Shown piece by piece: positions 1-58,058 of a stretch of 64,000 bases of DNA. Under the pieces are notes generated by a model. The model saw only the letters and a program-made list of their open reading frames with translations. It was not told the DNA's origin and made no database searches. Positions within the stretch are counted from its first letter, which is position 1; each line of letters opens with the position of its first letter. Where the stretch lies: the NCBI GenBank assembly GCA_025459175.1, contig JALORC010000007.1, positions 1-64,000 on the forward strand. The letters run 5' to 3'. The position numbers and the translations under genes are program-made. The stretch is from Planctomycetota bacterium. GTDB taxonomy: Bacteria; Planctomycetota; UBA1135; UBA2386.

Positions 1-53
1 ACGTCGTCGCTCGCGCTCCACGCGGCTCGGGGCACGTCACGGGGCACCCGTGG

Positions 54-896
54 TCACGCATCGGCCTGCAACTCCGTCAGCCAGCTGCGCCCCAGCTCCG
101 ACAACACGAACTGTCGCGCTCCCGTCAGCAGCCCCCACGTCTTCAGGTCCTTCTTCCGCTTGCTGCAATGGCTCTCCGACAACGCCCCGCCAGCCACAAC
201 GGCCGCGACGGCAACTTCCTTCGCGTGCAGTGGTCCGCCCTTGCATGCCCCGAGGATCGCAACGTCGTCCGCCTGGAGCTCACCAGCGGCCCTCGGGGCC
301 GGCCGCCCAACCTGCTTCCGCATCGCCCTCTTCATCTGCGACGACACCGCATAGAGCAGGAAGGGACTCGACCCGATCCCTGCCACCGCCTGGCGAATGC
401 ACCACCCGAGGTTGCTCGCCACCTCGACACCGCTGGCCGCTCGCCACTTGGCCAGGTCTGCACAGGGCGGAGTGAGCCCTGCCAAGACGTCTACCCGCCG
501 CGAGTGCCAGTCCTTCCCCGAATCGAACACGGCATCCATGAGCTTCTGTGCCGTCTGCAGCGCGGTCGCCTCGAACGCCGGCCGCACATGCGCAGGCAAC
601 CCATCCCAACTCACCGACCGAATGTCACCCATCAGCTGCGCAACCAGATCCGCCAACCGGAACTCGAGCTCCGCAATCCGCCGGATCGACAGCGGCCAAG
701 ACGCCCCTTCGCGCAACCAGACCCCGCGCTCCGCATGCACGTAGCGCATCACCTGCTTGACGATCCCCGACTCCTCCAGATCCTGCATCTTCGCGAAGAA
801 CCGCGCCCGCGCCTCCTGCGACGCGAGCGCAGTCGCCACGATGACCCGCGCAAACTTCGGCGGCAGCTTCACCTTCTTGGACTTCTTCGCGGCCAT
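54..896 (-). CDS. Hypothetical protein with winged-helix-like C terminus, next to integrase
   Basis: 280 residues. The start is the ATG that gives MAAKKSKKVKLPPKFA; codons further upstream overlap the integrase and read as shadow sequence. The N terminus is lysine-rich. The middle is helical and the last ~65 residues (DDVAILGACKGGPLHAKEV onward) resemble a winged helix. Only 11 nt separate it from the upstream integrase stop, so the two are probably co-transcribed. I recognise no family. Because of its position it is likely cargo or an accessory DNA-binding protein of the integrative element, but that is inference. Confidence 0.75.
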   Translation of the reverse strand: MAAKKSKKVKLPPKFARVIVATALASQEARARFFAKMQDLEESGIVKQVMRYVHAERGVWLREGASWPLSIRRIAELEFRLADLVAQLMGDIRSVSWDGLPAHVRPAFEATALQTAQKLMDAVFDSGKDWHSRRVDVLAGLTPPCADLAKWRAASGVEVASNLGWCIRQAVAGIGSSPFLLYAVSSQMKRAMRKQVGRPAPRAAGELQADDVAILGACKGGPLHAKEVAVAAVVAGGALSESHCSKRKKDLKTWGLLTGARQFVLSELGRSWLTELQADA

Positions 897-907
897 GCCG
901 ACAACCT

Positions 908-2083
908 CTACCCCAGCCGCTCCATGACCTCCACCGCCCTCGCCTGGTTGACCTCCGCATAGACCTGCGTCGTCTCCAGCTGCCGGTGCCCCAGCACGGC
1001 CTGCGCCGCCTCGATCCCCATCTCCTTCCGGATCCGCGTCGCCGCCGCATGCCGCAGCTGATTCGGACTCCACGCCGCCACCCCGGCCGCCGCACACCCC
1101 CGCGCAATCGCCCGCCGGTAGCTGTTGGTGTCGTAGCAGTCCCGCAGCCCTTGATCCTTCGACCCCCTGCGTACTTTCCGCGCGCCGTTCGAATGCGACG
1201 GCCACACCTTCGACTTGCGCGCCGCCCGCATCGCCGCCCGCCGCTCCAGCTCCGCGACCCTCGGCGAGAACAGCGCCGCCGCCGGATCCAACGACAAGAA
1301 CGGCACCAGCACCGCCTGCGCCTGCGGCCCGAGCGGGATCACGCGCTCCATGCCGTGATGCTCGACCTTGTGATCGCGCGGCCGGTACAGCCACACCCGC
1401 CCGCCACGATCGATCTCGGCCATGCGCATCTGAACCACTTCCTGCGGCCGCATCCCCGTCAGCCACTGCAGCTCGATCATCGCTGCGACCTGGCGCGCCA
1501 CGTGCGGCAACACCGCCTCGACCAACCCACGATCGACCGGCCGCACCGGCTCATACTCCTTGGCCCGCGACCGCCCGCGCTTGAGCCCGGCGACCGCGCG
1601 CAGCGCCTGCAGCACCTCGCCCGGCACCTGCTCGTTCTCGACCGCCCAGCGGAACGCCTGCCGGATGCGCGACACGTAGCCATTGATCGTCGTGCGGGCC
1701 AACCCCGCATCGATCATGCGTTCGCGGCACGCCTTCAACGCCAGCGGCCCGAACTCCGCCGCCGACAACGAGCCGTACAACGCATGCAGCGGCCGCATCG
1801 CCAGCCGCAGCACCGACAGCTCGCTCGTCGGCTTGCCGTTCTTGCGGTAGTAGACCTCGGCGTGCTGCCAGTAGCCGGCGATCACCTGGTCAACGGTGAC
1901 CACCTCGACCGCGGCGACACCGCCGGATGCCTGCCATTCGGCGACCAGGCGCAGATACGCGGACTGCGCCTCCTCCGAGCCGTAGACCCCGAGGTAGACG
2001 ACGCGACCGCCCAACTTCACCACGGCCCGACCTGAAGCCTTGTGCAGCTGCAGGGCGGGAACCTTGCGAGACTCGACCAACAT
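908..2083 (-). CDS. Tyrosine recombinase (phage-type integrase)
   Basis: 391 residues, typical length for a tRNA-targeting integrase. The N terminus carries a short arm-binding-like region (about 10-60) and a SAM-like core-binding domain (about 65-165). The catalytic domain shows Arg212 in TGMRPQEV, the HxxR box at His345-Arg350 (LRHAAATR), His366 in LGHRQ and the nucleophile Tyr375 (TTQVYAE). All key residues seem intact, so it should be active. It starts about 110 bp from the CCA end of tRNA-Pro(GGG) and reads away from it, the usual layout for an island integrated at a tRNA 3' end. The element would extend leftward out of the window. Confidence 0.95.
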   Translation of the reverse strand: MLVESRKVPALQLHKASGRAVVKLGGRVVYLGVYGSEEAQSAYLRLVAEWQASGGVAAVEVVTVDQVIAGYWQHAEVYYRKNGKPTSELSVLRLAMRPLHALYGSLSAAEFGPLALKACRERMIDAGLARTTINGYVSRIRQAFRWAVENEQVPGEVLQALRAVAGLKRGRSRAKEYEPVRPVDRGLVEAVLPHVARQVAAMIELQWLTGMRPQEVVQMRMAEIDRGGRVWLYRPRDHKVEHHGMERVIPLGPQAQAVLVPFLSLDPAAALFSPRVAELERRAAMRAARKSKVWPSHSNGARKVRRGSKDQGLRDCYDTNSYRRAIARGCAAAGVAAWSPNQLRHAAATRIRKEMGIEAAQAVLGHRQLETTQVYAEVNQARAVEVMERLG

Positions 2084-2192
2084 CGGACACTCCCCTCAGG
2101 CGTACGGTACGCCCGAGTCGCGGCAGTTCTGACCACGCGCCCGGCGGAAGCCGGGGAGCACCCAACTGGGTTCTCGACAAGCACTTAAGAAG

Positions 2193-2240
2193 TGGTCGGA
2201 GCGAGAAGATTTGAACTTCCGACCCCCTGCACCCCATGCA
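2193..2240 (-). other. Putative attachment site (attL/attR) in the tRNA-Pro 3' half
   Basis: Integrases of this type usually recombine within the 3' part of the neighbouring tRNA, leaving a direct repeat of 20-60 nt at the far end of the element. The 3' half of tRNA-Pro is therefore the likely core here. The other copy is not in the window; the island would extend beyond position 1. The boundary is approximate and inferred. Confidence 0.4.
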
Positions 2241-2269
2241 GGTGCGCTACCAGGCTGCGCTACGCTCCG
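2193..2269 (-). tRNA. tRNA-Pro(GGG)
   Basis: 77 nt including an encoded CCA. The acceptor arms are CGGAGCG and CGCTCCG followed by discriminator A and CCA. The D arm has GCGC/GCGC around AGCCTGGTA. The anticodon stem is CCTGC/GCAGG with loop ATGGGGT, which puts GGG at positions 34-36. The T arm is GGAAG-TTCAAAT-CTTCT with one G-U closing pair. It reads proline codons CCC and CCU. It lies immediately upstream of the integrase and is its probable target. Confidence 0.95.
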
Positions 2270-2452
2270 ACCCAACTACCAGACGTGAGGCCTGCAGCCT
2301 CGTGGGGAGCGAGGATGGTAGCGCCGGCCCCCAGCACGGCAAGGGCCGAGGCAAGCAACCGGCGGAACACGCGAACCGCCGAACAACCGCGAACCCACGC
2401 GAACACCCGCGACAACCCGCGCCGCTGCGCACCCACCCCCTACAGTCCCTCG

Positions 2453-3751
2453 ATGCACCGCCCGCTCCTGCTCGCCTGCCTGGTCCCCCTTCTACCCCAG
2501 CTGCGCACCCAGGAACCGAAGCCCCCCACCCCGCCCGCACCCACCCCCACCCTCACCCTCCCCGCCTTCACCGGCTACACGCACCCCGACCCCGACTCCG
2601 CCCACCGCCGCGACGACGGCTCGATCGAACACTCCGCCGGCGAGCTCCACTTCTACATCCACCTCCCCCACACCGGCGACCTCACCATCCGCCTCGAGCA
2701 CACCAACGCCGGCGCCGCCGACCCTTCCCCGCCCCAACTGCGCACCACCGTCCGCTCGACCACCACCCAGACCCCCACCACCCACCTCTCCGCGACCACC
2801 GACCTCGGCACCTTCCCGATCACCACCCGCGGCTTCCACGAGATCGTACTGACCGCCACCGACGGCAAACCGCTGCGCGAACTGCGCGCCATCCACCTCA
2901 GCGGCACCGCCGCCGAGAACGCGCACGCCAACACCATCGAGCGCCGCAACGCCGCCTCCGTGCACCTCGGCTACCCGATCCCAAAGGAGCATCGCGACGC
3001 GATCGAGTGGTTCTACATTGAGCTCACCCCGCGGACCGACCCGATCTGGAGCTACTACATGGCGACCGGTTGGCACCGCGGCTACTTCGGCATGCAGGTC
3101 AACTCCGCGACCGAACGGCGCATCATCTTCAGCGTCTGGGATGCCGGTGGCGAAGCGGTCGATCGCGGCAAGGTCGCCGATGACAACCGCGTCAAGCTGG
3201 TCGCGAAGGGAGACGGCGTGCACGCCGGCGACTTCGGCAACGAAGGCACCGGCGGCCACAGCCACTGGAAGCACGACTGGAAGCTCGGCGAGACGTTCCG
3301 CTTCCTGATGCACGCCAAGGCCACGGGCGACACCACCACCTACACCGGCTGGTTCTGGCTCGCCGAGCAGAAGCAATGGCGCCTGATCGCGAGCTTCCGC
3401 GCGCCGAAGGACGGCAAGCAGCTGCACGGCCTCTACTCGTTCTCCGAGAACTTCCACGGCGCCAACGGCGATCGCCTGCGCGACTGCGAGTTCGGCAACG
3501 GCTGGGTGCGCACCACGGCGGGCGGATGGCTGCCGCTGCTCGATGCGCACTTCACCCATGACGAGACCGGCGAGAAGGCGCGCGGCGACCGCTGCGCCGG
3601 CGTGCGCGGCAACCGCTTCTACCTGCGCCACGGCAACTTCACGCCCGCGCCCGAAGGTGCGGCGACCACCTACCGCCAGCCGCTGCGGGTGCCGCAGTCG
3701 GCGGGCACGCCGCCGCGCGACGACGAGCTGCCGAAGCCGCCGGCGCGGTGA
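2453..3751 (+). CDS. Secreted DUF3472 protein
   Basis: 432 residues. The start is the ATG giving MHRPLLLACLVPLLPQ, a clean signal peptide; the frame is open further upstream but there it overlaps the tRNA. After a Pro/Thr-rich linker comes a DUF5077-like beta-rich region (about 45-170: GELHFYIHL, DLTIRLEH). A DUF3472 domain follows (about 180-400), recognisable from EWFYIELTPRTDPIWSYYMA and the GYFGMQVNS and IIFSVWD strands. The family is extracellular or periplasmic and its activity is not established; a carbohydrate-related role is often supposed. The first third uses far more C-rich codons than the rest. Confidence 0.85.
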   Translation: MHRPLLLACLVPLLPQLRTQEPKPPTPPAPTPTLTLPAFTGYTHPDPDSAHRRDDGSIEHSAGELHFYIHLPHTGDLTIRLEHTNAGAADPSPPQLRTTVRSTTTQTPTTHLSATTDLGTFPITTRGFHEIVLTATDGKPLRELRAIHLSGTAAENAHANTIERRNAASVHLGYPIPKEHRDAIEWFYIELTPRTDPIWSYYMATGWHRGYFGMQVNSATERRIIFSVWDAGGEAVDRGKVADDNRVKLVAKGDGVHAGDFGNEGTGGHSHWKHDWKLGETFRFLMHAKATGDTTTYTGWFWLAEQKQWRLIASFRAPKDGKQLHGLYSFSENFHGANGDRLRDCEFGNGWVRTTAGGWLPLLDAHFTHDETGEKARGDRCAGVRGNRFYLRHGNFTPAPEGAATTYRQPLRVPQSAGTPPRDDELPKPPAR

Positions 3752-3809
3752 TCCGGCTCGCTGACACCACTCGCCATCGCTCGTCACCCGCTGGAACGCG
3801 CCCGTACCG

Positions 3810-4628
3810 ATGCAGGATCCGACCCCGACCGTCGCCCCGACCGCGCCTGCGCTGCTGCACAGCGAAGCCGCCTGCCCCAACTGCGGCGCGCCCTCGCCGG
3901 GCCGCTTCTGTGCGTCGTGCGGCCAGCGCCAGCACGGACGCCTGTCGCTGCGCATCCTGTGGCAGGACTTCGCGTCCCGCTTCCTGAGTGCCGAGAACGG
4001 CTTCCTGCCGACGATGTGGCAGCTGGCCACTCGCCCCGGGCGCTGCGCGCGCCGCTATCTCGACGGCCAGCGCAAGGCGCTCACGGCGCCGCTCGGCATC
4101 TATGCACTCGGCGCCACCGCCCAGGTGCTCGGCCTGTGGTCGCTGAAGGATCAGGTGAAGGCCCAGATCACCGCACAGCTGCCCGACGCCTACTTCCAGT
4201 TCCTGGCCAAACGCGGCATCCAGGACCCGAAGGAGTTCGCCGGCGAACGCTACCTCGCGCTGATGCAGAGCGCCTACTCGTGGCTCGGCCTGTTCGCGTT
4301 CGTGATGCCGATGGCGGTGGTGGCGCGCCTGCTGCTCGGTCGGCGCGCCAACCTCGCCGAACTGCTCGCCGTGGCGCTCTATTCGGCCGGCTTCGTGATG
4401 CTCGTCACCGCCGTCACCGGCCAGGCGCTGGTCCGCTGGTCGCCGCAGGTCCACGGCACCGCGAGCCTGTCGCTGTACTTCGTGCACGGCGTCTGCATCT
4501 TCGGCGGCGGCTTCGGCTGGCGCTGGCGGCCGCTGCTGGCCGGCGCGGTCGGCACCGCGAGCGCGATGGCCGGCATGCTGTTCTCGATCGGAGTGCTGAC
4601 CGGGATCGTGTTGACGTTCGGGGTGTGA
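3810..4628 (+). CDS. DUF3667-like membrane protein with N-terminal zinc ribbon
   Basis: 272 residues. The N terminus has two CxxC knuckles (CPNCGAPSPGRFCASCGQ, residues 22-39), typical of a zinc ribbon. A conserved stretch follows (AENGFLPTMWQLATRPG, then a YLDGQR segment), as in DUF3667 proteins. The rest holds about four hydrophobic helices. It is probably an inner-membrane protein with a cytoplasmic zinc ribbon. The function of the family is unknown. It stands alone between the DUF3472 gene and the convergent acetyltransferase gene. Confidence 0.8.
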   Translation: MQDPTPTVAPTAPALLHSEAACPNCGAPSPGRFCASCGQRQHGRLSLRILWQDFASRFLSAENGFLPTMWQLATRPGRCARRYLDGQRKALTAPLGIYALGATAQVLGLWSLKDQVKAQITAQLPDAYFQFLAKRGIQDPKEFAGERYLALMQSAYSWLGLFAFVMPMAVVARLLLGRRANLAELLAVALYSAGFVMLVTAVTGQALVRWSPQVHGTASLSLYFVHGVCIFGGGFGWRWRPLLAGAVGTASAMAGMLFSIGVLTGIVLTFGV

Positions 4629-4685
4629 GCCCTCACCCGAACTCGACGGCCCCGGTCCGCGGCGCCGACAGCAGCGCTCCCGGAC

Positions 4686-5777
4686 TCACCGAGAGCCCGC
4701 GACCTCGGCACCCGCGGCAACCGAAGCCTTGCGCGCCGCCACGCCATCGCCGCGACACCTGACGTAACGCTGCGCCCGCGGCTTGGCCAACGCCGCTGCC
4801 AGCTCGGACTCGAAGGCGAACGAGTCGCGGCGGAAACCGGCGCGTTCGGCGACGCGGGCCGAAGCGGCGTGATCGTCACGAATCCAGGCCTCGAGCACCT
4901 CGACCTCGAAACGTTCGAAGCAGTGCGTCACGAACGCGGGGAGGATGCGGCTCATCCAGCCCTTGCCCCAGTGTTCCTCGGCCAGCCAGTAGGCGACCTC
5001 GGCCGTGCGCATGCCGGCGAACGCATCGTGCAGGCGCAGCAGGCACTGACCGATCGGTTCGCCGTCGCGCACGATCGCGAAGGCCTGTTGGCGCGTGTCG
5101 ATGCTGCCGAGCTCGATCAACGCCAACGCGGTCGCCTCGGTCAGCGGCTGCGGATAGCTCTCGGGCAGGTAGTGCCACAGGCGTGGGTTGTCGAGCATCC
5201 TGCGGTAGCGCGGCGCATCCGCTCTCGCCCATGGCCGGAACGAGAACTCGTCGCCGACCGCCGCCGGCGCGGCGCGTGGCGCCTCGACGCGCGCGAGCCG
5301 AGCCTGCACCACGAGGTGACAACGACTCGCCATGACGACGCCGTGGCGCGCACGGCAGGCGGCGAGCTGCGCCCTGGCGGCATCGCGGATCCTGTCGATG
5401 GCCACGGCAGCGGCCGCGGCATCGGCAACGGCGGCAGCCATCTCGATCTGCGCCGACAGGGTGCGCAACATGCGCATCGCGTCCGCTTCGGGCGAGGCAT
5501 ACGCAGCCAGGTCGACCACCCGCTCGTCGCGCGACGGCAGCGGCGCATCATCGACGCAGGCGGCGGCAACCCAGCCGATCTGGGCACAGTCGTAGGCGAG
5601 CTCGATGCCATGCGTGCGGCAGTAGTCGAGCTCCTCGGCGTCGAGCACGCCCTCCCAACGCGAACGCCGCGGATCGAACGCGCGTCCGGACGGCAGCCTG
5701 ACCACGTTCGTCGCGCCTGGCGCAATCAGCCTCTCGGCATGCTCGGTGCGCAGTTCCACAGGTTCTGGATCTGTCAT
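4686..5777 (-). CDS. GNAT-family N-acetyltransferase with N-terminal extension
   Basis: 363 residues. The C-terminal half (about 180-350) is a RimJ/RimL-type GNAT domain. Signs are the opening FSFRPWARADAPRYRRML, the central AEVAYWLAEEHWGKGWMSRI matching the acetyl-CoA-binding region, and the closing ASARVAERAGFRRDSF. The first ~175 residues are alanine-rich with a helical middle and match nothing I recognise; cysteines and histidines there do not form a clear motif. The substrate cannot be told from sequence. It is convergent with the DUF3667 gene. Confidence 0.85.
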   Translation of the reverse strand: MTDPEPVELRTEHAERLIAPGATNVVRLPSGRAFDPRRSRWEGVLDAEELDYCRTHGIELAYDCAQIGWVAAACVDDAPLPSRDERVVDLAAYASPEADAMRMLRTLSAQIEMAAAVADAAAAAVAIDRIRDAARAQLAACRARHGVVMASRCHLVVQARLARVEAPRAAPAAVGDEFSFRPWARADAPRYRRMLDNPRLWHYLPESYPQPLTEATALALIELGSIDTRQQAFAIVRDGEPIGQCLLRLHDAFAGMRTAEVAYWLAEEHWGKGWMSRILPAFVTHCFERFEVEVLEAWIRDDHAASARVAERAGFRRDSFAFESELAAALAKPRAQRYVRCRGDGVAARKASVAAGAEVAGSR

Positions 5778-5930
5778 GGTTCACGGCTCCGCTGGACGGG
5801 CCTCGCCACCTGCTCGGTGCAGCCGTGCAGCGGGCACTGCACAGCTCACACCCTTCGCAGCCAGCTTCTCCGGCGGCCGCCTGCATTCAAGGTCTGCCGA
5901 GGCGCCCGATGCGAAGGGCGCTTCGGCACC

Positions 5931-8054
5931 TCACTGGTCGATGCCGACCTGGCTCAGCATCCACGCCATCTCGAACGCCTTGTCGCGCCAGCGGTCGTAG
6001 CGCCCCGACGCGCCGCCGTGCCCGGCGGCCTCGAGCTTGCACTGCATCAGCAGCGGCGCCTTGCCGCCGGTCAGCGCGCGCAGCTTGGCGGTGTACTTGG
6101 CCGGCTCCCAGTACATCACCTGCGAATCGTTGAAGCTCGTCGTCACCAACGTCGCCGGGTAGGCCTTGTTCTCGAGGTTGTCGTACGGGCTGTACGACAG
6201 CATGTACTCGAACGCCTCCTTCTCGTTGGGATTGCCCCACTCGAGGTACTCACCGACCGTCAGCGGCAGCGACGCGTCCATCATCGTGTTCATCACGTCG
6301 ACGAACGGCACCGCGCTGTGCACCGCCTTGAACAGGTCCGGCCGCAGGTTGGCGACCGCGCCCATCAGCAGACCACCGGCGCTGCCGCCCTCGATCATCA
6401 GCTTGTCCTTGGCGGTCCAGCGCTCGGCGACCAGGAACTCCGCGCAGTCGATGAAGTCGAAGAACGTGTTCTTCTTCTTCATCAGCATGCCGTCCTTGTG
6501 CCACTGCTCGCCGAGGTCGTTGCCGCCGCGGATGTGCGCGATCGCATAGGCGACACCGCGGTCGAGCAGGCTGATGCGGTCGCTCGAGAACGTCGCCGGC
6601 ATCGCGTTGCCGTAGGAGCCGTACGCGTACAACCACAGCGGCCCCTTGCCGTCCTTCTGTCGATCGGCGCGGTAGACGATCGAGATCGGCACCCGCACGC
6701 CGTCGCGCGCCTTCGCCCACAGCCGCTCGGTGCGGTATTTGCTCGCGTCGTAGCCGACCACCTCGGTCTGCTTCTTCAGCGTGCGCGTCAGCGTCTTCAG
6801 GTCGTAGTCGTAGACGCACGACGGCGTCACCATCGACTGGTAGCCGATCCGGAACGTCGTCGACCGGAACTCCGGCGTGCCGCCGGGGAACGCGGCGTAG
6901 ACCGCCTCGGGGAACGTGATGTCGCGCCACTCCCCGCTGCGGAAGTCGAGCACGCGGAAGCGCGTCAGCGCCGCGGCCTTCTCGGTGACGACGGCGAAAT
7001 CGGCGAACACGTCGAAACCGCTGACCAGACCGTCGGCGCGGTGCGGCACGATCTCCTTGCCCTTCGCGAGCTCGAACGCGCCGACCGGCACCTGCACGAC
7101 CTTGAAGTTGACCGCGCCCTGGTCGGTGGTCACGAACCACGAACCGTCGCGGTGCTCCGGCTGATAGCGGTGCCCCTTCTGCCGCGGGGCCAGCACGGCG
7201 AACGACCCGTTCGCGGTGCTCGCATCGAGCGCGCGCCATTCCGCCGTGTCGGTGCTGCCGGAACCGCACAGCAGGTAGCGCTTGTCGCGCGTGCGCGTGA
7301 GCCCGATCGCGTAGAGCTCGTCCGTCTCCTCGTAGAGCAGTTCCGGCGGCTTGCCGAACACCAGCCGCCACAGCTTGTCGCTGCGCTTCGTGACGTCGTC
7401 CTCGGTGCAGTAGAACAGCGTGCTGCCGTCCGCCGACCACTCGACCGACGTCACGCGTTCGGCGAGGTCGGCGGTGATCGCGCCGGAGCGCAGGTCCTTC
7501 ACGTGCAGCTTGTACTGCCGGAAGCCGGTGGTGTCGGTCGTGTAGGCGAGCCGCTGGTCGTCGTCGCTGACCTGTTGCGCACCGAGGCCGAGGTAGGCGA
7601 GCCCCTTCGCCATCTCGTTCTGGTCGAGCAGCACCTGCTCGACGGCCTGGTCGTCGAAGCTGCCGTCGGCGGCCGCCGGCTTGCGGCACGAGATCGGGTA
7701 CTGCTGCCCCTCGACGGTGCGCGAGTAGTAGAAGAAACGACCGTCGCGCACCGGCACACTGAGGTCCGTCTGCTTCACACGCGCGACCATCTCCGCGTAC
7801 AGCTTCTCGCGCAGCGGCTGCTGCGCGGCCGTCATCGCCTCGGTGTAGGCGTTCTCGGCCTGCAGGTAGGAGCGCACCTCGGGGTTGTCCTTCTGCCGCA
7901 GCCAGAACCACTCGTCGACGAACGTGCGGCCGTGCCACGTCTGCTCGTGCGGCACACGCTTGGCGACCGGTGGCTGCGGCGCCTGCGCGAGCAGGGCCGG
8001 GGCGAGGAACGCGAGCAGCAGGCTCGCGACGAAGGGGCGTTGGTTCACGATCAT
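5931..8054 (-). CDS. Prolyl oligopeptidase family protease (S9A, oligopeptidase B-like), exported
   Basis: 707 residues, the normal size for S9A. The start MIVNQRPFVASLLLAFLAP gives a signal peptide ending at an ALLAQ-type site; codons further upstream lack it. The N-terminal part (about 30-400) is the seven-bladed propeller. The C-terminal alpha/beta-hydrolase domain has Ser558 in GGSAGG, Asp643 in SFNDSQV and His679 in GHGGASGR, a complete triad. The LYAYGSYG and AHIRGGNDLGEQWHKDG stretches are typical of oligopeptidase B. It should cleave short peptides after proline or basic residues in the periplasm. Confidence 0.95.
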   Translation of the reverse strand: MIVNQRPFVASLLLAFLAPALLAQAPQPPVAKRVPHEQTWHGRTFVDEWFWLRQKDNPEVRSYLQAENAYTEAMTAAQQPLREKLYAEMVARVKQTDLSVPVRDGRFFYYSRTVEGQQYPISCRKPAAADGSFDDQAVEQVLLDQNEMAKGLAYLGLGAQQVSDDDQRLAYTTDTTGFRQYKLHVKDLRSGAITADLAERVTSVEWSADGSTLFYCTEDDVTKRSDKLWRLVFGKPPELLYEETDELYAIGLTRTRDKRYLLCGSGSTDTAEWRALDASTANGSFAVLAPRQKGHRYQPEHRDGSWFVTTDQGAVNFKVVQVPVGAFELAKGKEIVPHRADGLVSGFDVFADFAVVTEKAAALTRFRVLDFRSGEWRDITFPEAVYAAFPGGTPEFRSTTFRIGYQSMVTPSCVYDYDLKTLTRTLKKQTEVVGYDASKYRTERLWAKARDGVRVPISIVYRADRQKDGKGPLWLYAYGSYGNAMPATFSSDRISLLDRGVAYAIAHIRGGNDLGEQWHKDGMLMKKKNTFFDFIDCAEFLVAERWTAKDKLMIEGGSAGGLLMGAVANLRPDLFKAVHSAVPFVDVMNTMMDASLPLTVGEYLEWGNPNEKEAFEYMLSYSPYDNLENKAYPATLVTTSFNDSQVMYWEPAKYTAKLRALTGGKAPLLMQCKLEAAGHGGASGRYDRWRDKAFEMAWMLSQVGIDQ

Positions 8055-51686: not shown

Positions 51687-52064
51687 TCAACCGCCGCGCC
51701 GCCACAGCAGCACGACCGCCGCCAGCAGCAACACGACCTCGAGCCCGAACGCAAACCGCGCGTTGCCGAGCGCCCCGAAGCCCAGCCGCACGGCAGCGAG
51801 GCTGCGCCAGCCCACCAGACCTCCGTACAGCGCCACCGACCACAACAGCGCGGTCCAACGCGTCTCGGGCAGCCAGACGGCAAGGGCATAGCCGACGCCG
51901 AGCCCCGCCTGCAGGCCGCCGTAGACGGCGAGGTACTCGGATTCGCCGCCGGCACCGGTGGTCGACAGGCCGAGCCAGTTAGCGGTGGTGCGCGGCGCGA
52001 GGGTGCACCAGATCGAGAACGCGCCGTAGAGCACGGCATTGACGGCCAGGTAGAGCACGAGCAT
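51687..52064 (-). CDS. DUF4345-like small membrane protein
   Basis: 125 residues from MLVLYLAVNAVLYGAFSIWC, with four hydrophobic helices. Motifs NWLGLSTTGAGGESEYLAVYGG and LLWSVALYGGLVGWRSLAA resemble DUF4345-type proteins. The function is unknown. Its final 26 residues also occur as a remnant at 47248-47325. The gene is 146 bp upstream of the S8 protease on the same strand. Confidence 0.75.
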   Translation of the reverse strand: MLVLYLAVNAVLYGAFSIWCTLAPRTTANWLGLSTTGAGGESEYLAVYGGLQAGLGVGYALAVWLPETRWTALLWSVALYGGLVGWRSLAAVRLGFGALGNARFAFGLEVVLLLAAVVLLWRRGG

Positions 52065-52431
52065 GGCCCCATCATGCGCCGCGGCGCGGGATTCGGTGTG
52101 CGCCGTGTCCCGAACGCTGTCGCGGCCCTCACGGATCGTGAGCGAGCGCGACCTCCACCGCATCGAGCGACGTCGGCACATCGATCATCGCCTTGGTCAA
52201 CACACCTCCGCAAAGTCTCTCTGCCGACAAACGCCACTCGCGTTCGGGGAGGCCACGGAAGGTGACCTTGCTCGGTGCGACCCTGAACGGTCAGTATCTC
52301 GTCATCGGCCAGGCTGGTTCGAGCACCGACCACGTCGCGCAAGTGGTCGCCCTCGAGCAGCGCCCAGGGCCACTGCGCCGACGGCCCGTGGCTGGACGAG
52401 AGTGCTCGGCACGGCGACGATGCCGCGGCGA
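52065..52431. other. 367-bp region without recognised gene
   Basis: It separates the divergent DUF4345-like and secreted-protein genes, so it should hold both promoters. On the minus strand a stretch reading AMIDVPTSLDAVEVALAHDP then a stop looks like a short coding tail, but no upstream frame supports it. No other feature was found. Confidence 0.4.
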
Positions 52432-53334
52432 ATGAGGATGATCCGATCGCGCCTTCGGTGGCTGTTGGCCAGACGCAATCACGGGGCGCTCGGCCTGGCC
52501 CTGCTGATGACCATCCCCTGCGTTGCCCAGGAGCCAGCTCCGCCTGCAGCACCAGACGCTAAGCCGACCACCGTGACCAGCGCCTTCCGGATGCCGGACC
52601 TCACGCGCTTCGATGCCGACCGCGAACCCGGCGCGGGCACCGCCGACAAGCGGCTGCTGGCACTGCTGCGTGAACTCGAGCAGGTCGATCGTTGCCAGCC
52701 GCTGACCCTGGCCGTGACCGCCGGCACGCTCTGGGCGCGCTATCCGGCCGGAGCCAAGCTCGCCGTCGAGGGTTCCCTGCTCCAGATCATCAAGCCGGAG
52801 CCGGTCGGCGCGCAGTTGCAGCTGTCGGTGCTGACGATGCCGACCGCAGTCGCCGAACGCAGCGGGCTCGTGCCGAGCGCGAGCCGTGCGCTCGACGAGG
52901 TGGCGGTCGGTGTGCTCGGCCGCGCGGCCACGGCGGCCGGTGGGACGCTGCGCAACCTGCCGGAGTTCTCGGTGTCGGCGCTGACGCCGTTCACGGTCCC
53001 GCTGCAGGCACTGGCAGAAGGCGCCAGCGCCAAGGAACGGGTCGCAGGGGAACTGGTGCCCCTCGATGCGACGACCGTGCTGATCGCGTTCGATCTGCTG
53101 CGCGACGTTGCGGGCAGCACCGAGGCACCGGGCAAGCCGCTGCACGTTGCCGCGCGAATGCAAGCAGGCAGCGTGCTCGTGTGCAGCGTCGACACCGAGT
53201 CGGGACAGGCGATCGTGGTAGTGATGCGCTGCCTCGCCGTGGCCGCCCCGAAGCCAGCGCCGGCGCCCGTACCGGCCCCGCAAGGCAAGACTGCCGATCC
53301 GCCGGGGCGCGGCAGGCTTCACGCCCCCTTGTAG
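52432..53334 (+). CDS. Hypothetical exported protein
   Basis: 300 residues. The start MRMIRSRLRWLLARRNHGALG gives a basic, hydrophobic signal region ending near a VAQE cleavage site. The rest has beta strands (LAVTAGTLWARYPAGAKLAVEG, LQLSVLTMPTAV) and a C-terminal Pro/Ala tail. I recognise no family. It overlaps the end of the RtcB gene by 16 nt, tail to tail. Confidence 0.65.
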   Translation: MRMIRSRLRWLLARRNHGALGLALLMTIPCVAQEPAPPAAPDAKPTTVTSAFRMPDLTRFDADREPGAGTADKRLLALLRELEQVDRCQPLTLAVTAGTLWARYPAGAKLAVEGSLLQIIKPEPVGAQLQLSVLTMPTAVAERSGLVPSASRALDEVAVGVLGRAATAAGGTLRNLPEFSVSALTPFTVPLQALAEGASAKERVAGELVPLDATTVLIAFDLLRDVAGSTEAPGKPLHVAARMQAGSVLVCSVDTESGQAIVVVMRCLAVAAPKPAPAPVPAPQGKTADPPGRGRLHAPL

Positions 53335-54431
53335 ACCAGCACCGGTTCGAGCCGCCGCAGGATGCGCACCAGCTCGCGCTGCGCCCGCATCACCGCGCTG
53401 ATGTCCTTGTAGGCCGCGGGCGCCTCGTCGCACAGGCGCGGTACGAGGGCGCGTTCGTAGAACACCGCGCCGAGCGACCGCTCGAACTCGCGCACCGGCA
53501 CCCGCCGCCGCGCCTCGCCGCGCGCCAGCTTGCGCCCGGCCCCGTGCGAGCTCGAGCACATCGCCGCCGCACAGCCGCGGCCCTCGACATGGAACGACCA
53601 CGTGCCCATCGAGCCAGGGATCACGCCGAACTCGTCCGCCTGCGCCGACGACGCGCCCTTGCGATGCACCCACAGCCGTTCGCCGGCATGCACTTCCTCG
53701 CGCACGAAGTTGTGCACGACGTCCTGCCAACTGCCCCAGTCGACCTCGATGCCGAGCGCGTGCCGTAGAGCAGCCGCAGCCGCCTCGCCGATCGCGCGGC
53801 GGTTGGCGCGCGCGAACGCGACCGCGAGCGCATGGTCGTGCAGGTAGTCGGCGCCGTACCCGTCGACCGACAGCGACACCAGCCCTTTGTGCGCACTGCC
53901 GCCAGCGCTGCCGCGCGCGAGATGATGATCACGCACCGCCGGGCCGAGCGCGCGCGAGCCGCTGTGCACCATCAGCCACAACTGATCGTGCTCATCGGCC
54001 TGCACTTCGAGGAAGTGATTGCCGCGGCCGAGCGTGCCGAACTCGACCCGCAGCTCGCGCGCGATCGTGCGCTGCAGGCCAGGATCCGACAGCGCCCCGA
54101 GCGGCGCATCGCGCGCCGCGTGGTGCCGGATCGCCGGCACCCGTTCGCGCAGTGCCGCGAACACGCGTTCGGCAGCTTCTGCATCGGCGAGCATTTCGCG
54201 CGAGGCTTCGAGCCGCACCACCGCCATGCCACAACCGATGTCGCCGCCGACCGCCTGCGGATACAGGCGATCGGCGGTGCCGAGCACGGTGCCGACACAG
54301 ACGTGTTCGGACAGATGCACGTCCGGCATCACCGCGATGCGCGCCACTCCGGGTGCCGCGGCGAGCCGTTCGAGCGCCTGGGCGACGTCCTTCGGCAACG
54401 GCTCCGCCAACCAGCGGTGCACGACGGTCAT
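53319..54431 (-). CDS. rtcB: RtcB-like RNA ligase
   Basis: 370 residues, a short RtcB. It joins RNA 2',3'-cyclic phosphate or 3'-phosphate ends to 5'-OH ends through a GMP-histidine intermediate. Motifs present: VMPDVHLSEHVCVG, AVGGDIGCGMAVV (metal-binding Asp/Cys), GRGNHFLE, MVHSGSR, HRKGAS, IPGSMGTWSF and SSSHGAGR, which has the guanylylated His. The short form lacks the N-terminal extension of classical RtcB. It is translationally coupled to the RbfA-like gene (TGA/ATG overlap). Archease is not adjacent. Confidence 0.92.
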   Translation of the reverse strand: MTVVHRWLAEPLPKDVAQALERLAAAPGVARIAVMPDVHLSEHVCVGTVLGTADRLYPQAVGGDIGCGMAVVRLEASREMLADAEAAERVFAALRERVPAIRHHAARDAPLGALSDPGLQRTIARELRVEFGTLGRGNHFLEVQADEHDQLWLMVHSGSRALGPAVRDHHLARGSAGGSAHKGLVSLSVDGYGADYLHDHALAVAFARANRRAIGEAAAAALRHALGIEVDWGSWQDVVHNFVREEVHAGERLWVHRKGASSAQADEFGVIPGSMGTWSFHVEGRGCAAAMCSSSHGAGRKLARGEARRRVPVREFERSLGAVFYERALVPRLCDEAPAAYKDISAVMRAQRELVRILRRLEPVLVYKGA

Positions 54432-54754
54432 CGTGCACCTCCGGGTGGCAGCACCGTGAACGACAGCTGTGGCACGCGGCGCCGGTGCACCAGTTCGGCC
54501 ACCGCTTCGCGCAGGAAGCCGCGCGCGCGATCAAGCGCTGCCAGGGTTGCGACCAGGCCGTGGCCGCGCGGGTCCGAGACGACGACCAGCACGTGCCGGT
54601 CGTCGGGCATCGGCTCGACGTGATCGAGCTCGAGGTCCATCAGGATCGGATCGGAGGAATCGCCCAGTGCGTACGACAGTGCGTCGTGCACCTGGGCACA
54701 GAGTTGGCGGGCCTTCTGGGAGGACCGGCCGCCGCGGTCATTCGACGAATGCAT
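54428..54754 (-). CDS. RbfA-like KH-fold protein coupled to RtcB
   Basis: 108 residues. Residues ~17-100 follow the RbfA pattern: QLCAQVHDALSYALGD, then DLELDHVEPMPDDRHVLVVV, helix LAALDRARGFLREAVAELVH and the end RRVPQLSFTVLPPG, comparable to RbfA 'lRkPpLhF'. RbfA is normally in the nusA-infB operon and binds 16S rRNA. Here the gene ends in an overlap with the rtcB start, and no translation genes are near. It could deliver RtcB to a ribosomal or tRNA substrate. The assignment to the RbfA fold is probable; the function is inferred. Confidence 0.7.
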   Translation of the reverse strand: MHSSNDRGGRSSQKARQLCAQVHDALSYALGDSSDPILMDLELDHVEPMPDDRHVLVVVSDPRGHGLVATLAALDRARGFLREAVAELVHRRRVPQLSFTVLPPGGAR

Positions 54755-55076
54755 CTGCTGGTCACATGGCGTGCTCGCGCACGCCCGAATGGAACCGATG
54801 TGGGTACGGAGTCCCGTTGGATCAGGACTCGACGCTCAACCCGGCCGCCGCGCGCTGTTCAGCCGCGCGAGAACCGGGAGGCGGACACAGCGATGCAGAT
54901 GCGTTGCATGGTGGCCTCTCGGGGAGGGCGGGAAGGTAGCGGCAAGGTGGGAGTTGGCAAGGGGCGAACGGGGCGATGCCGACCGGATGCTCGCCGAGGA
55001 CGAGGAACGCGAACGGGCCGCGGCGGGGCACACAGAAATCCCTGCCCCTGCCGGCGCGATCTGTCGCTCGACGAGC
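54755..55076. other. 322-bp region without recognised gene
   Basis: It should hold the promoter of the RbfA-like/rtcB operon and that of the small exported protein. A 16-codon minus-strand frame starting near 54910 was noted but is not supported. No hairpin or repeat stood out. Confidence 0.5.
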
Positions 55077-55304
55077 ATGAACCATCTCCACATCCCCAGA
55101 CTCCTGTTGCTCGCGCTGGTCGGCGCGAGCCTGCTTGCCGCGCTGCCGGCGACCACGCGTCCCCTGCAGCAGCCCGCACCGACATCGGCGCACCACGACG
55201 CATACGCAGACCAGCCGTCGGCCGCGTTCGAGGCCCAGGACCCGAAGCCGAAGCAGGGTCCGAAGCAGGGCGCCGGCAAGAAGAAGCGGGCGAAGCCCAC
55301 TTGA
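55077..55304 (+). CDS. Small exported basic peptide
   Basis: 75 residues. The start MNHLHIPRLLLLALVGASLL is a signal peptide. The mature part is short and ends in a Lys/Pro/Gly-rich tail (PKPKQGPKQGAGKKKRAKPT). It has no known family. A hairpin at 55344 follows 40 nt after its stop. It may be processed or act as a secreted linker-type peptide, which is speculation. Confidence 0.55.
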   Translation: MNHLHIPRLLLLALVGASLLAALPATTRPLQQPAPTSAHHDAYADQPSAAFEAQDPKPKQGPKQGAGKKKRAKPT

Positions 55305-55343
55305 CGCCGGGTTCGCCGCACGCGGTCGCGTGCATGAAGCAAG

Positions 55344-55375
55344 GAGGCCGCTACGCATGTTCTGCGAGCGGCCTC
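55344..55375 (+). terminator. Hairpin after the small exported-peptide gene
   Basis: GAGGCCGCT pairs with AGCGGCCTC without a mismatch, and CGCA/TGCG extends the stem inside the loop. It lies 40 nt after the stop. No T-run follows, so it may rely on Rho or act as mRNA 3'-end protection. Confidence 0.5.
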
Positions 55376-55463
55376 GGCCACCTGGGCCAACGCCATCGGC
55401 CAGCGCCGGAAATCACGGCCTGACCGCGAACGGACTCCGACCCCGGTTCGCTGTCCAGCGACC

Positions 55464-56822
55464 ATGACCCGCCTTCAACCCCTGCTCCTCGCCAGCCTGC
55501 TGGCCGCCACCGCCGTCGCCCAGGACGTCAACGTCGCCCTCGGCGGCACCGCCACCCAGTCCAGCTTCCTCGGCTTCGGCGAACAACCCGGCAATGCCAT
55601 CGACGGCAACCGCGACGGCTACTGGTACAACAGCTCGTGCACGGTGACGGGGAACGTCCCCGGCGCGTGGTGGCAGGTCGTGCTCGCCAGCCCGAGCCTC
55701 GTCAACGAAGTCGTGATCTGGAACCGCTCCGACTGCTGCGGCAACCGCCTGTCGGCGTTCCGCGTCGACGTGATGAACGGCAGCACGGTCGTGTTCCAGC
55801 AGAGCTTCCACACCGACGGCTCCCAGGTGCCAGACGGCGACTACCTGCGCGTGCGCATCCCCGGCCCGGGTGTCAACGCGACCGCCGTGCGCATCAGCAA
55901 TGTCGGCGTCAACGCCGAAGGCACCAACGTCCTGCAGTTCGCCGAGGTCGAGGTGATCCGCCATGGCACCGGCCGCGAGATCAACTTCGCTCGCTACGGC
56001 ACCACCACCGCGTCGTCGAACGCGAGCACCGCCATCAGCGCGATCGACGGCAGCATCAACGGCTACGAGCCCGGCAACGCTACCTGGCGCAGCACCGCCG
56101 CTGCCAACCAGTGGCTGGAAGTGGCCTGCGAACGCCACCGCGTCGACACGATCCGGCTGTGGCCGGTCACCCACAGCGGCAGCTCGATCAGCTGCGGCAA
56201 CTACCGCGTCGGCGTGTGGGACAACGGCGTCGAGGTCTGGGGCACCAACCTGCTGCCCAGCGCCAGCATGCCGATCAACCGGGCGACCGTGGTCACGCCA
56301 CCCGCCGGCACGTTCGGCAACCGCATCCGCGTCAGCACGCTCGGCCCGGTCAACGGCACGACGCAGCTGGTGTTCGCCGAACTCGAGAGCGTGATGTTCG
56401 CCGGCTACATCGGCGAGCAGTGGCGCTACGGCGCCGGCTGCCGCGCCGGCTCTTCGGTGCCGCGGCTCGACAATCGTGTGCGCCCGACCAACGGCGCCAA
56501 CCTGTCGATGACGGTGTCGCCGGTGCCGGCCGCGGGCCTCGGGCTGTTGGTGACGGGTCTGTCGGCCTCGGTCTTCGGCGCGCTGCCGCTGCCGTTCGAG
56601 CTGAGCCCGCTCGGCGCGCCGCACTGCTGGGCGCTCACCAGCCTGGATGCGACCTCGCTGGCGACCACGACCACCAGCACGCTGACGTTCCCGTTCGCGA
56701 TCCCGACCACCACGGGCACGCTCGGCACGCGGCTGTTCCAGCAGGCGGTGATCTACGCGCCTTCGACCAACGCGTTCGGCTTCGTCGTCAGCAACGCGCT
56801 CGAGCAGTACATCGGCTTCTGA
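55464..56822 (+). CDS. Secreted protein with two F5/8C-type domains and a C-terminal module
   Basis: 452 residues with signal peptide MTRLQPLLLASLLAATAVAQ. Two discoidin-like galactose-binding domains: the first (about 22-165) has VNVALGGTATQSS, GNAIDGNRDGYWYNSS and WWQVVLASPSLVNEVVIWNR; the second (about 168-310) has INFARYGTTTASS and AISAIDGSINGYEPGNATW. The C-terminal ~130 residues (RYGAGCRAGSSVPRLDN then PLPFELSPLGAPHCWALTS) are the surface module. It should bind sugars on cells or polymers. Confidence 0.88.
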   Translation: MTRLQPLLLASLLAATAVAQDVNVALGGTATQSSFLGFGEQPGNAIDGNRDGYWYNSSCTVTGNVPGAWWQVVLASPSLVNEVVIWNRSDCCGNRLSAFRVDVMNGSTVVFQQSFHTDGSQVPDGDYLRVRIPGPGVNATAVRISNVGVNAEGTNVLQFAEVEVIRHGTGREINFARYGTTTASSNASTAISAIDGSINGYEPGNATWRSTAAANQWLEVACERHRVDTIRLWPVTHSGSSISCGNYRVGVWDNGVEVWGTNLLPSASMPINRATVVTPPAGTFGNRIRVSTLGPVNGTTQLVFAELESVMFAGYIGEQWRYGAGCRAGSSVPRLDNRVRPTNGANLSMTVSPVPAAGLGLLVTGLSASVFGALPLPFELSPLGAPHCWALTSLDATSLATTTTSTLTFPFAIPTTTGTLGTRLFQQAVIYAPSTNAFGFVVSNALEQYIGF

Positions 56823-56860
56823 GCGCTCAGCCAGGGGCCGCGACTGAGCTTCCCCCCAAT

Positions 56861-56897
56861 CCTTGAATATTGAGCGACGATCGCTCATTATTCAAGG
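56861..56897 (+). promoter_or_regulatory. Palindrome 3 nt upstream of DUF4143 ATPase copy 2
   Basis: CCTTGAATATTGAGCGA, centre CGA, then TCGCTCATTATTCAAGG; 16 of 17 positions pair. The spacer to GTG is ACC, as for the other DUF4143 gene. It is AT-rich relative to its surroundings and is probably an operator or 5'-UTR hairpin. Confidence 0.75.
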
Positions 56898-56900
56898 ACC

Positions 56901-58058
56901 GTGTTGACGCGCGACGACGACCTCGGCACCCTTCGCCGCCAACTCCGCCGCTACCCGGTGGTCGCGATTCTCGGGCCGCGACAGGTCGGCAAGACGACCC
57001 TGGCGCGGGAGCTCGCGACCACGACGTCCATCCCGCCGACCTTTCTCGATCTGGAGGATCCTGCCGATCTACGACGGCTGGATGACGCATCGACGACCCT
57101 GCGCGAACGCCGCGGCCTCGTCGTCATCGACGAGATCCAGCGGCGTCCGGATCTGTTCCCACTGCTGCGCGTACTCGCCGACCGCCCGCGCAAGCCAGCG
57201 CGGTTCCTGGTTCTCGGCAGTGCCTCGCCGAATCTGCTGCGCCAGTCGTCGGAGAGTCTGGCAGGGCGCATCTACTTCCACGAGCTCGCCGGGTTCTCCC
57301 TCGCCGACGTGGGGCAGAAGCACTGGCACAAGCTGTGGCTGCGCGGCGGCTTCCCGCTGGCGTTCCTCGATCGCAGCGACCAGGGGAGCTTCGACTGGCG
57401 GCGCAGCCTGGTGCAGACCTACCTCGAGCGCGACCTGCCCGGCCTCGGCTCGCAGGTGCCGGGGGCGACGATGGAGCGCTTCTGGTCCATGCTGGCGCAT
57501 CATCACGGGCAGATCTGGAACGCATCCGAGCTCGCCAGCAGCTTCGGCACAGCGCACACGACCGTGCGCCGCTACCTCGAGCTGCTGGTCGACACCTTCA
57601 TGATCCGCACGCTGCAGCCCTGGCACGAGAATCTCGGCAAGCGGCAGGTGAAGGCGCCGAAGATCTACTTTCGCGACACCGGCCTCCTCCACGCGCTGCT
57701 CGGACTGCGTCGTCAGGACGATCTCGACCGGCACCCGAAACTCGGCGCATCCTTCGAGGGATTCGCCCTCGAGCAAGTGGTCCGCCGGCTGGGCGCCAGC
57801 CGCGACGAGTGCTTCTTCTGGTCCACCTATGCCGGCGCCGAGCTGGACCTGCTCGTCGTCCGCGGCGGCCGCCGCTACGGCTTCGAGTTCAAGCACACCG
57901 ACGCGCCCGGTACGACGAAGTCGACGGCGATCGCGCTGGCGGACCTGCGGCTCGATCGCCTCGACATCGTGCATGCCGGCAAGGAGACGTATCCGCTGAG
58001 CAAGGCAGTGAGGGCAGTCGCGATGGGCAGGATCCTGGAGGATCTGCAGCCGCTGTAG
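56901..58058 (+). CDS. AAA ATPase with DUF4143 domain (COG1373-type), copy 2
   Basis: 385 residues from GTG. Walker A GPRQVGKTTLARELA and Walker B LVVIDEIQRRPDLFPLLR are intact, with a sensor-like VLGSASPNLL. DUF4143 follows (LVQTYLERDLPG, HTTVRRYLELLVDTFMI, KIYFRDTGLLHALLG) and the end is nuclease-like (TYAGAELDLLVV then RYGFEFKHTDAP). The layout matches copy 1, though the two share little more than motifs, so they are not recent duplicates. The GTG start is the first codon after the palindrome. Confidence 0.88.
   Translation: MLTRDDDLGTLRRQLRRYPVVAILGPRQVGKTTLARELATTTSIPPTFLDLEDPADLRRLDDASTTLRERRGLVVIDEIQRRPDLFPLLRVLADRPRKPARFLVLGSASPNLLRQSSESLAGRIYFHELAGFSLADVGQKHWHKLWLRGGFPLAFLDRSDQGSFDWRRSLVQTYLERDLPGLGSQVPGATMERFWSMLAHHHGQIWNASELASSFGTAHTTVRRYLELLVDTFMIRTLQPWHENLGKRQVKAPKIYFRDTGLLHALLGLRRQDDLDRHPKLGASFEGFALEQVVRRLGASRDECFFWSTYAGAELDLLVVRGGRRYGFEFKHTDAPGTTKSTAIALADLRLDRLDIVHAGKETYPLSKAVRAVAMGRILEDLQPL

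Follow-up and report, generated by a model that had tools for sequence, protein, structure and literature searches.

An RbfA-like gene overlapping rtcB: a conserved bacterial gene pair with a possible role in ribosomal RNA repair

The gene pair and its conservation

The window, i.e., the whole stretch of 64,000 nucleotides analyzed here (contig JALORC010000007.1 of the Planctomycetota bacterium assembly GCA_025459175.1), contains two adjacent genes on the reverse strand. Their features are as follows.

54428..54754, reverse strand: gene of an RbfA-like KH type II protein (ATG at 54754, TGA at 54430–54428, 108 aa)
53319..54431, reverse strand: gene of a predicted short RtcB RNA ligase (ATG start, 370 aa, PF01139 match)
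54428..54431, reverse strand: ATGA stop/start overlap, a signature of translational coupling, read from the sequence
54470..54526, reverse strand: codons 77–95 of the RbfA-like gene, encoding the A-R-G kink, alpha 3, and the R-R/K-R-x-P loop

When the two genes are read as ORFs, the TGA of the RbfA-like ORF shares bases with the rtcB ATG in the 4-nt overlap ATGA; the original prediction of a 108-residue ORF of the RbfA pattern with its TGA over the rtcB start is borne out at 54431–54428. No Rfam elements were found at 52000–57000, and no sigma-70-like promoter was seen near the pair, this being a weak test in high-GC DNA. The scanned neighboring ORFs encode subtilase, F5/8-type, and AAA_14/DUF4143 proteins or match no family; none of them matches the archease family, and neither rtcA nor rtcR was seen among them. 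An AAA_14/DUF4143 ATPase (56901–58058, forward strand) adjoins the secreted F5/8-type and subtilase proteins, and no tie between it and the pair was seen.

RtcB relatives were gathered from one genome per species. Of the 68 closest loci, 64 have readable upstream DNA (L016, L058, and L069 end at a contig end, and L011 is masked), and each of these 64 has an RbfA-like ORF immediately before rtcB on the same strand. None of 12 more distant RtcB loci has such an ORF. The gap between the two genes has a median of 17 nt over the 64 pairs and falls between −20 and +50 nt in 55 of them; 11 pairs overlap. The pair occurs in at least five bacterial phyla, those listed being Planctomycetota, Myxococcota, Acidobacteriota, Nitrospirota, Pseudomonadota, and Riflebacteria.

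Sampling of 199 genomes from across the phylum Planctomycetota yielded nine RtcBs of this clade (at least 404 bits with the clade profile, versus at most 337 for all others), and an RbfA-like gene is adjacent in 9/9. The same is true of all three clade members in a second phylum-wide draw, of 113 genomes around Sorangium. The adjacency is not due to chance, since 64/64 readable loci and 12/12 clade members of the two draws have this upstream partner; these counts also answer in the affirmative the question, raised with the original prediction, of whether the pair is conserved in other genomes. Within the window's own order the distribution is patchy: none of the other 11 genomes sampled has the pair.

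No third conserved partner was found, as clustered neighboring ORFs of loci L003–L070 share generic families alone. In an RtcB protein search of plasmid records, identities were all below 40% among the matches listed, and no plasmid carriage was seen. Distances between the partners correlate with those between the RtcBs (r = 0.69, 59 pairs), a correlation that would also arise from plain co-inheritance. In a six-genome subset, the value for the partner versus RtcB is 0.89, compared with 0.62 for canonical RbfA versus RtcB.

Fold and signature of the RbfA-like partner

The window protein matches the Pfam family RBFA (PF02033) over residues 16–100 with E = 2e-7 and 31.7 bits, slightly below the curated cut-off of 34.7, and stays below the cut-offs of the NCBIfam RbfA models (20.2 versus 51.15 and 25.2 versus 142; TIGR00082 tested). 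Some relatives of the partner exceed the Pfam cut-off, 49 of the 53 members of the partner alignment match the family, and the partner-family profile matches RbfA chains in PDB (E = 2.7e-9). An AlphaFold model of the window protein, built from the 53-member alignment, has pLDDT 87 and the element order alpha1-beta1-beta2-alpha2-kink-alpha3-beta3, that is, KH type II. The best 20 Foldseek matches of this model in PDB show either RbfA itself or assembly intermediates with RbfA bound, both bacterial and mitochondrial, with 2dyj as the best match (TMt 0.85). The proposed RbfA-type KH fold is thus supported by structure prediction.

A canonical rbfA, whose presence elsewhere in the genome had been named as a point to check, was found at G000:C81 (88.6 bits), with a gene of an IF2 GTPase nearby. 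More generally, 30 of 33 genomes, chosen for holding the pair or a standalone copy, have a separate canonical rbfA; the exceptions are G035, G141, and G210, where the partner copy alone was found. Since canonical rbfA is present besides the partner, the latter is an extra paralogue, and it has its own signature. The two proteins share the KH type II fold, the A-x-G kink (A77-R78-G79 in the window protein), and the invariant proline before the last strand. They differ in genomic place, as the canonical copy sits near the IF2 gene and the RbfA-like copy with rtcB, in the family cut-offs, and in conserved residues. Comparison of the partners with 19 canonical RbfAs demonstrated that two motifs near-invariant in RbfA are altered in the paralogue. 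The arginine of the DPR motif in the alpha1/beta1 linker, found in 84% of canonical RbfAs, is not among the common partner residues (the window protein has D-P-I), and the terminal aspartate after beta3, found in 100% of canonical RbfAs, is not common in the partners (L102 in the window protein). Instead, the partners gain or fix R82 (95%) and, in the R-K/R-R-x-P loop, R91 (95%), K/R92, and R93 (82%), followed by P95 (100%).

A tree of 96 sequences separates partners and standalone copies from canonical RbfA, with the exception of L070, and a single clade comprising them was not rejected (p-AU 0.85). In L070 (5498–7101, Myxococcaceae), a canonical-like RbfA is encoded directly upstream of rtcB; this arrangement may be ancestral or may stem from a separate coupling event.

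In the S. aureus 30S–RbfA complex, the alpha3/beta3 loop is wedged between bends in the 3′ portion of 16S rRNA, the beta1/beta2 loop points into the cavity between h28 and the h44–h45 linker, and the DPR motif (D27–R29) touches the 16S 3′ end (PMC9917171). The basic run R91–R93 of the partners falls in the alpha3/beta3 loop. From this run and the loss of DPR we infer a strengthened wedge surface and an altered contact with the 16S 3′ end. Given the loss of DPR, the mode of 30S binding may differ from that of RbfA.

About 25 of the 64 partners have an N-terminal extension with the motif LC...DDGxDPR, which is absent from the window protein. It is predicted to form a short helix and a flexible loop and is perhaps a docking motif. 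The motif spans phyla (L007 5567–5700, L061, L088, and others) and occurs also in standalone copies, but is missing from the window's own clade.

In 12 Planctomycetota genomes, 13 RbfA-like copies stand without an adjoining rtcB, so that the two genes need not be paired in every genome. These partner-type copies (L086–L098), seven of them from one Planctomycetota family (f26), have no conserved neighbors. At least 10 of the 12 genomes encode another full-length RtcB elsewhere, which allows action of the standalone copies in trans, but proves nothing.

The RtcB clade and known RtcB systems

The window RtcB matches PF01139 with E = 7e-77. Aligned with P. horikoshii RtcB, it retains the catalytic and metal-binding residues D64, C67, N138, H139, E142, H156, H240, and H296, which are invariant over 46 sequences of the clade, and it is accordingly predicted from sequence to be a 3′-phosphate/5′-OH RNA ligase. 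With TIGR03073 it scores 163 bits, below the cut-off of 271.8. As neither protein reaches a curated NCBIfam cut-off, both the RtcB clade and its partner lack a named NCBI family.

In the RtcB tree, 42 RbfA-coupled RtcBs group together (SH-aLRT 99), with L067 and L070 adjoining; E. coli-type RtcBs form the neighboring clade, and PrfH-coupled RtcB2s are distant. The main clades are unaffected by two features of the sample: L061 is represented by its RtcB2 and not by its RbfA-coupled RtcB, which reaches 499 bits against the clade profile, and L079_b was entered as PrfH-coupled, this label being unproven. Loci L071–L082, considered as candidate PrfH-coupled loci, were ruled out, as they mostly contain E. 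coli-type RtcBs with no PrfH alongside. A second RtcB of the window's genome (C102) groups with the E. coli type.

Among known systems, the RtcBA/RtcR operon of the E. coli type involves the same ligase superfamily and the nearest sampled RtcB clade, but the partner differs, no rtcA or rtcR neighbor was seen, and the E. coli-type RtcB of this genome is encoded separately. Archease, too, is a small accessory protein whose gene accompanies that of RtcB, but it is not a KH protein.

A close analogy is provided by the PrfH–RtcB2 system, which frees and mends ribosomes whose 16S decoding center has been cleaved by colicin E3; RtcB2 reseals the cut 16S rRNA on the 30S subunit after PrfH action and splitting (PMC9223846). 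Both systems are tight two-gene operons that combine a short RtcB with a protein binding the ribosome (here a predicted binder), and both are distributed sporadically. In contrast, the partner of RtcB2 is a release factor encoded downstream, whereas here the gene upstream of rtcB encodes an RbfA-like KH protein as the partner, and the window RtcB belongs to a separate clade, below the TIGR03073 cut-off. The window's genome has no PrfH, only matches of the RF1/RF2 type, and among the nine paired Planctomycetota PrfH exceeds the family cut-off in G056 alone. As the RtcB clades of the two modules are distant in the tree, coupling of RtcB to a ribosome-binding partner probably arose twice.

Linkage of the pair to other RNA-repair genes was observed in L061 alone (positions 1–7092, Alteromonadaceae bacterium M269). 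Here one strand encodes, in order, rtcB2, prfH, an RNA ligase of PF09414, and an HD + AAA_33 kinase, followed after a gap of 248 nt by the RbfA-like gene and rtcB; rlaP is located near the cluster. This locus thus places two RtcB modules next to each other, each with a ribosome partner of its own. The fact that the pair adjoins the PrfH–RtcB2 system in this locus points to ribosomal RNA.

Proposed role in rRNA repair and alternative explanations

RtcB seals RNA ends carrying 2′,3′-cyclic phosphate and 5′-OH. We suggest, with a probability of about one half, that the two genes form an rRNA-repair module whose RbfA-like component directs RtcB to the 30S decoding region or opens this region for it. 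A ribonuclease cut of 16S rRNA would leave 2′,3′-cyclic phosphate and 5′-OH ends, and the co-translated RtcB would rejoin the cut molecule. The binding site of RbfA comprises h28, the linkers h28/h44 and h44/h45, and the 3′ end of 16S rRNA (PMC9917171), and in the 30S–RbfA complex helix 44 stays undocked (PMC8201178). The paralogue would bind the small subunit near the h28/h44/h45 decoding region, RbfA's own site, and would there recruit RtcB or keep helix 44 undocked. By reuse of the RbfA contact, a damaged 30S subunit would be held open and RtcB brought to cuts in h44 or the linkers. The module would work in a manner similar to PrfH–RtcB2, but with an assembly-factor adaptor on free 30S rather than a release factor on stalled 70S. 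More tentatively, and at somewhat less than even odds, a duplicated assembly factor could be run in reverse, undocking helix 44 of damaged mature 30S subunits while the coupled RtcB reseals 16S rRNA, the whole being a widespread and undescribed system that would have arisen independently of PrfH–RtcB2.

The RbfA-like protein might instead act after ligation, refolding the 3′ domain of the mended 30S, with RtcB finding its substrate unaided. This would be in line with the known role of RbfA in 30S maturation and helix 44 docking (PMC8201178), with the observation that overexpressed E. coli RtcB2 alone guards against colicin E3 (PMC9223846), and with the existence of standalone RbfA-like genes. 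We consider it unlikely, given that canonical rbfA is already there, so that a dedicated, stop/start-coupled paralogue implies an RtcB-specific role; moreover, the paralogue has changed two motifs that RbfA itself retains almost invariably. KH domains bind diverse RNAs, and the one encoded here could be a generic RNA-binding handle of a pair that mends or splices tRNA (or tmRNA) and not rRNA. General RtcB (rtcBA) has indeed been implicated in tRNA and tmRNA repair (PMC12606134, PMC9223846). This explanation is less probable still, as the KH domain is specifically of the RbfA type and of no other KH family, a second RtcB, of the E. coli type, is encoded in the genome, and the single linked repair cluster, L061, contains prfH, a ribosome-directed factor. 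Overall, rRNA fits better than tRNA as the candidate substrate.

A housekeeping role, in which RtcB would join rRNA ends or exons in 16S processing with the RbfA-like protein as its assembly partner, agrees with the function of RbfA in rRNA maturation (PMC8201178). It is improbable in view of the patchy spread of the pair (9 of 199 Planctomycetota genomes and none of 11 other sampled genomes of the order), which suits an accessory stress or conflict function; 16S rRNA genes were not found in the assembly of this genome. Finally, bacterial operons can hold unrelated genes, and two unrelated translation-related genes could share one promoter by coincidence. Such a coincidence is strongly disfavored, and indeed highly improbable, because order, orientation, and tight spacing are kept in the six listed phyla with no other conserved neighbor.

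Returning to the rRNA-repair module, the literature searched contained no paper that couples RtcB to RbfA in this way, although the pair may have been mentioned earlier in RNA-repair surveys. The original statement that no description of the pair was known agrees with this search but overlooked PrfH–RtcB2, the sole ribosome-directed RtcB module that we found described. With this precedent, repair on the ribosome gains in plausibility, and the idea loses some of its novelty. If the proposed role is true, coupling of RtcB to a ribosome-binding adaptor has evolved more than once, in this case on an assembly factor; RtcB paralogues with no assigned role gain a concrete, testable substrate; and assembly factors can serve as repair factors on mature subunits. 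A further combination of rtcB and prfH is seen in a Bacteroidales locus (L069, 102–2570), where rtcB is followed by an ORF of a putative metallopeptidase (HEIGHH) and then by prfH; the RtcB of this locus is not of the usual PrfH-coupled kind.
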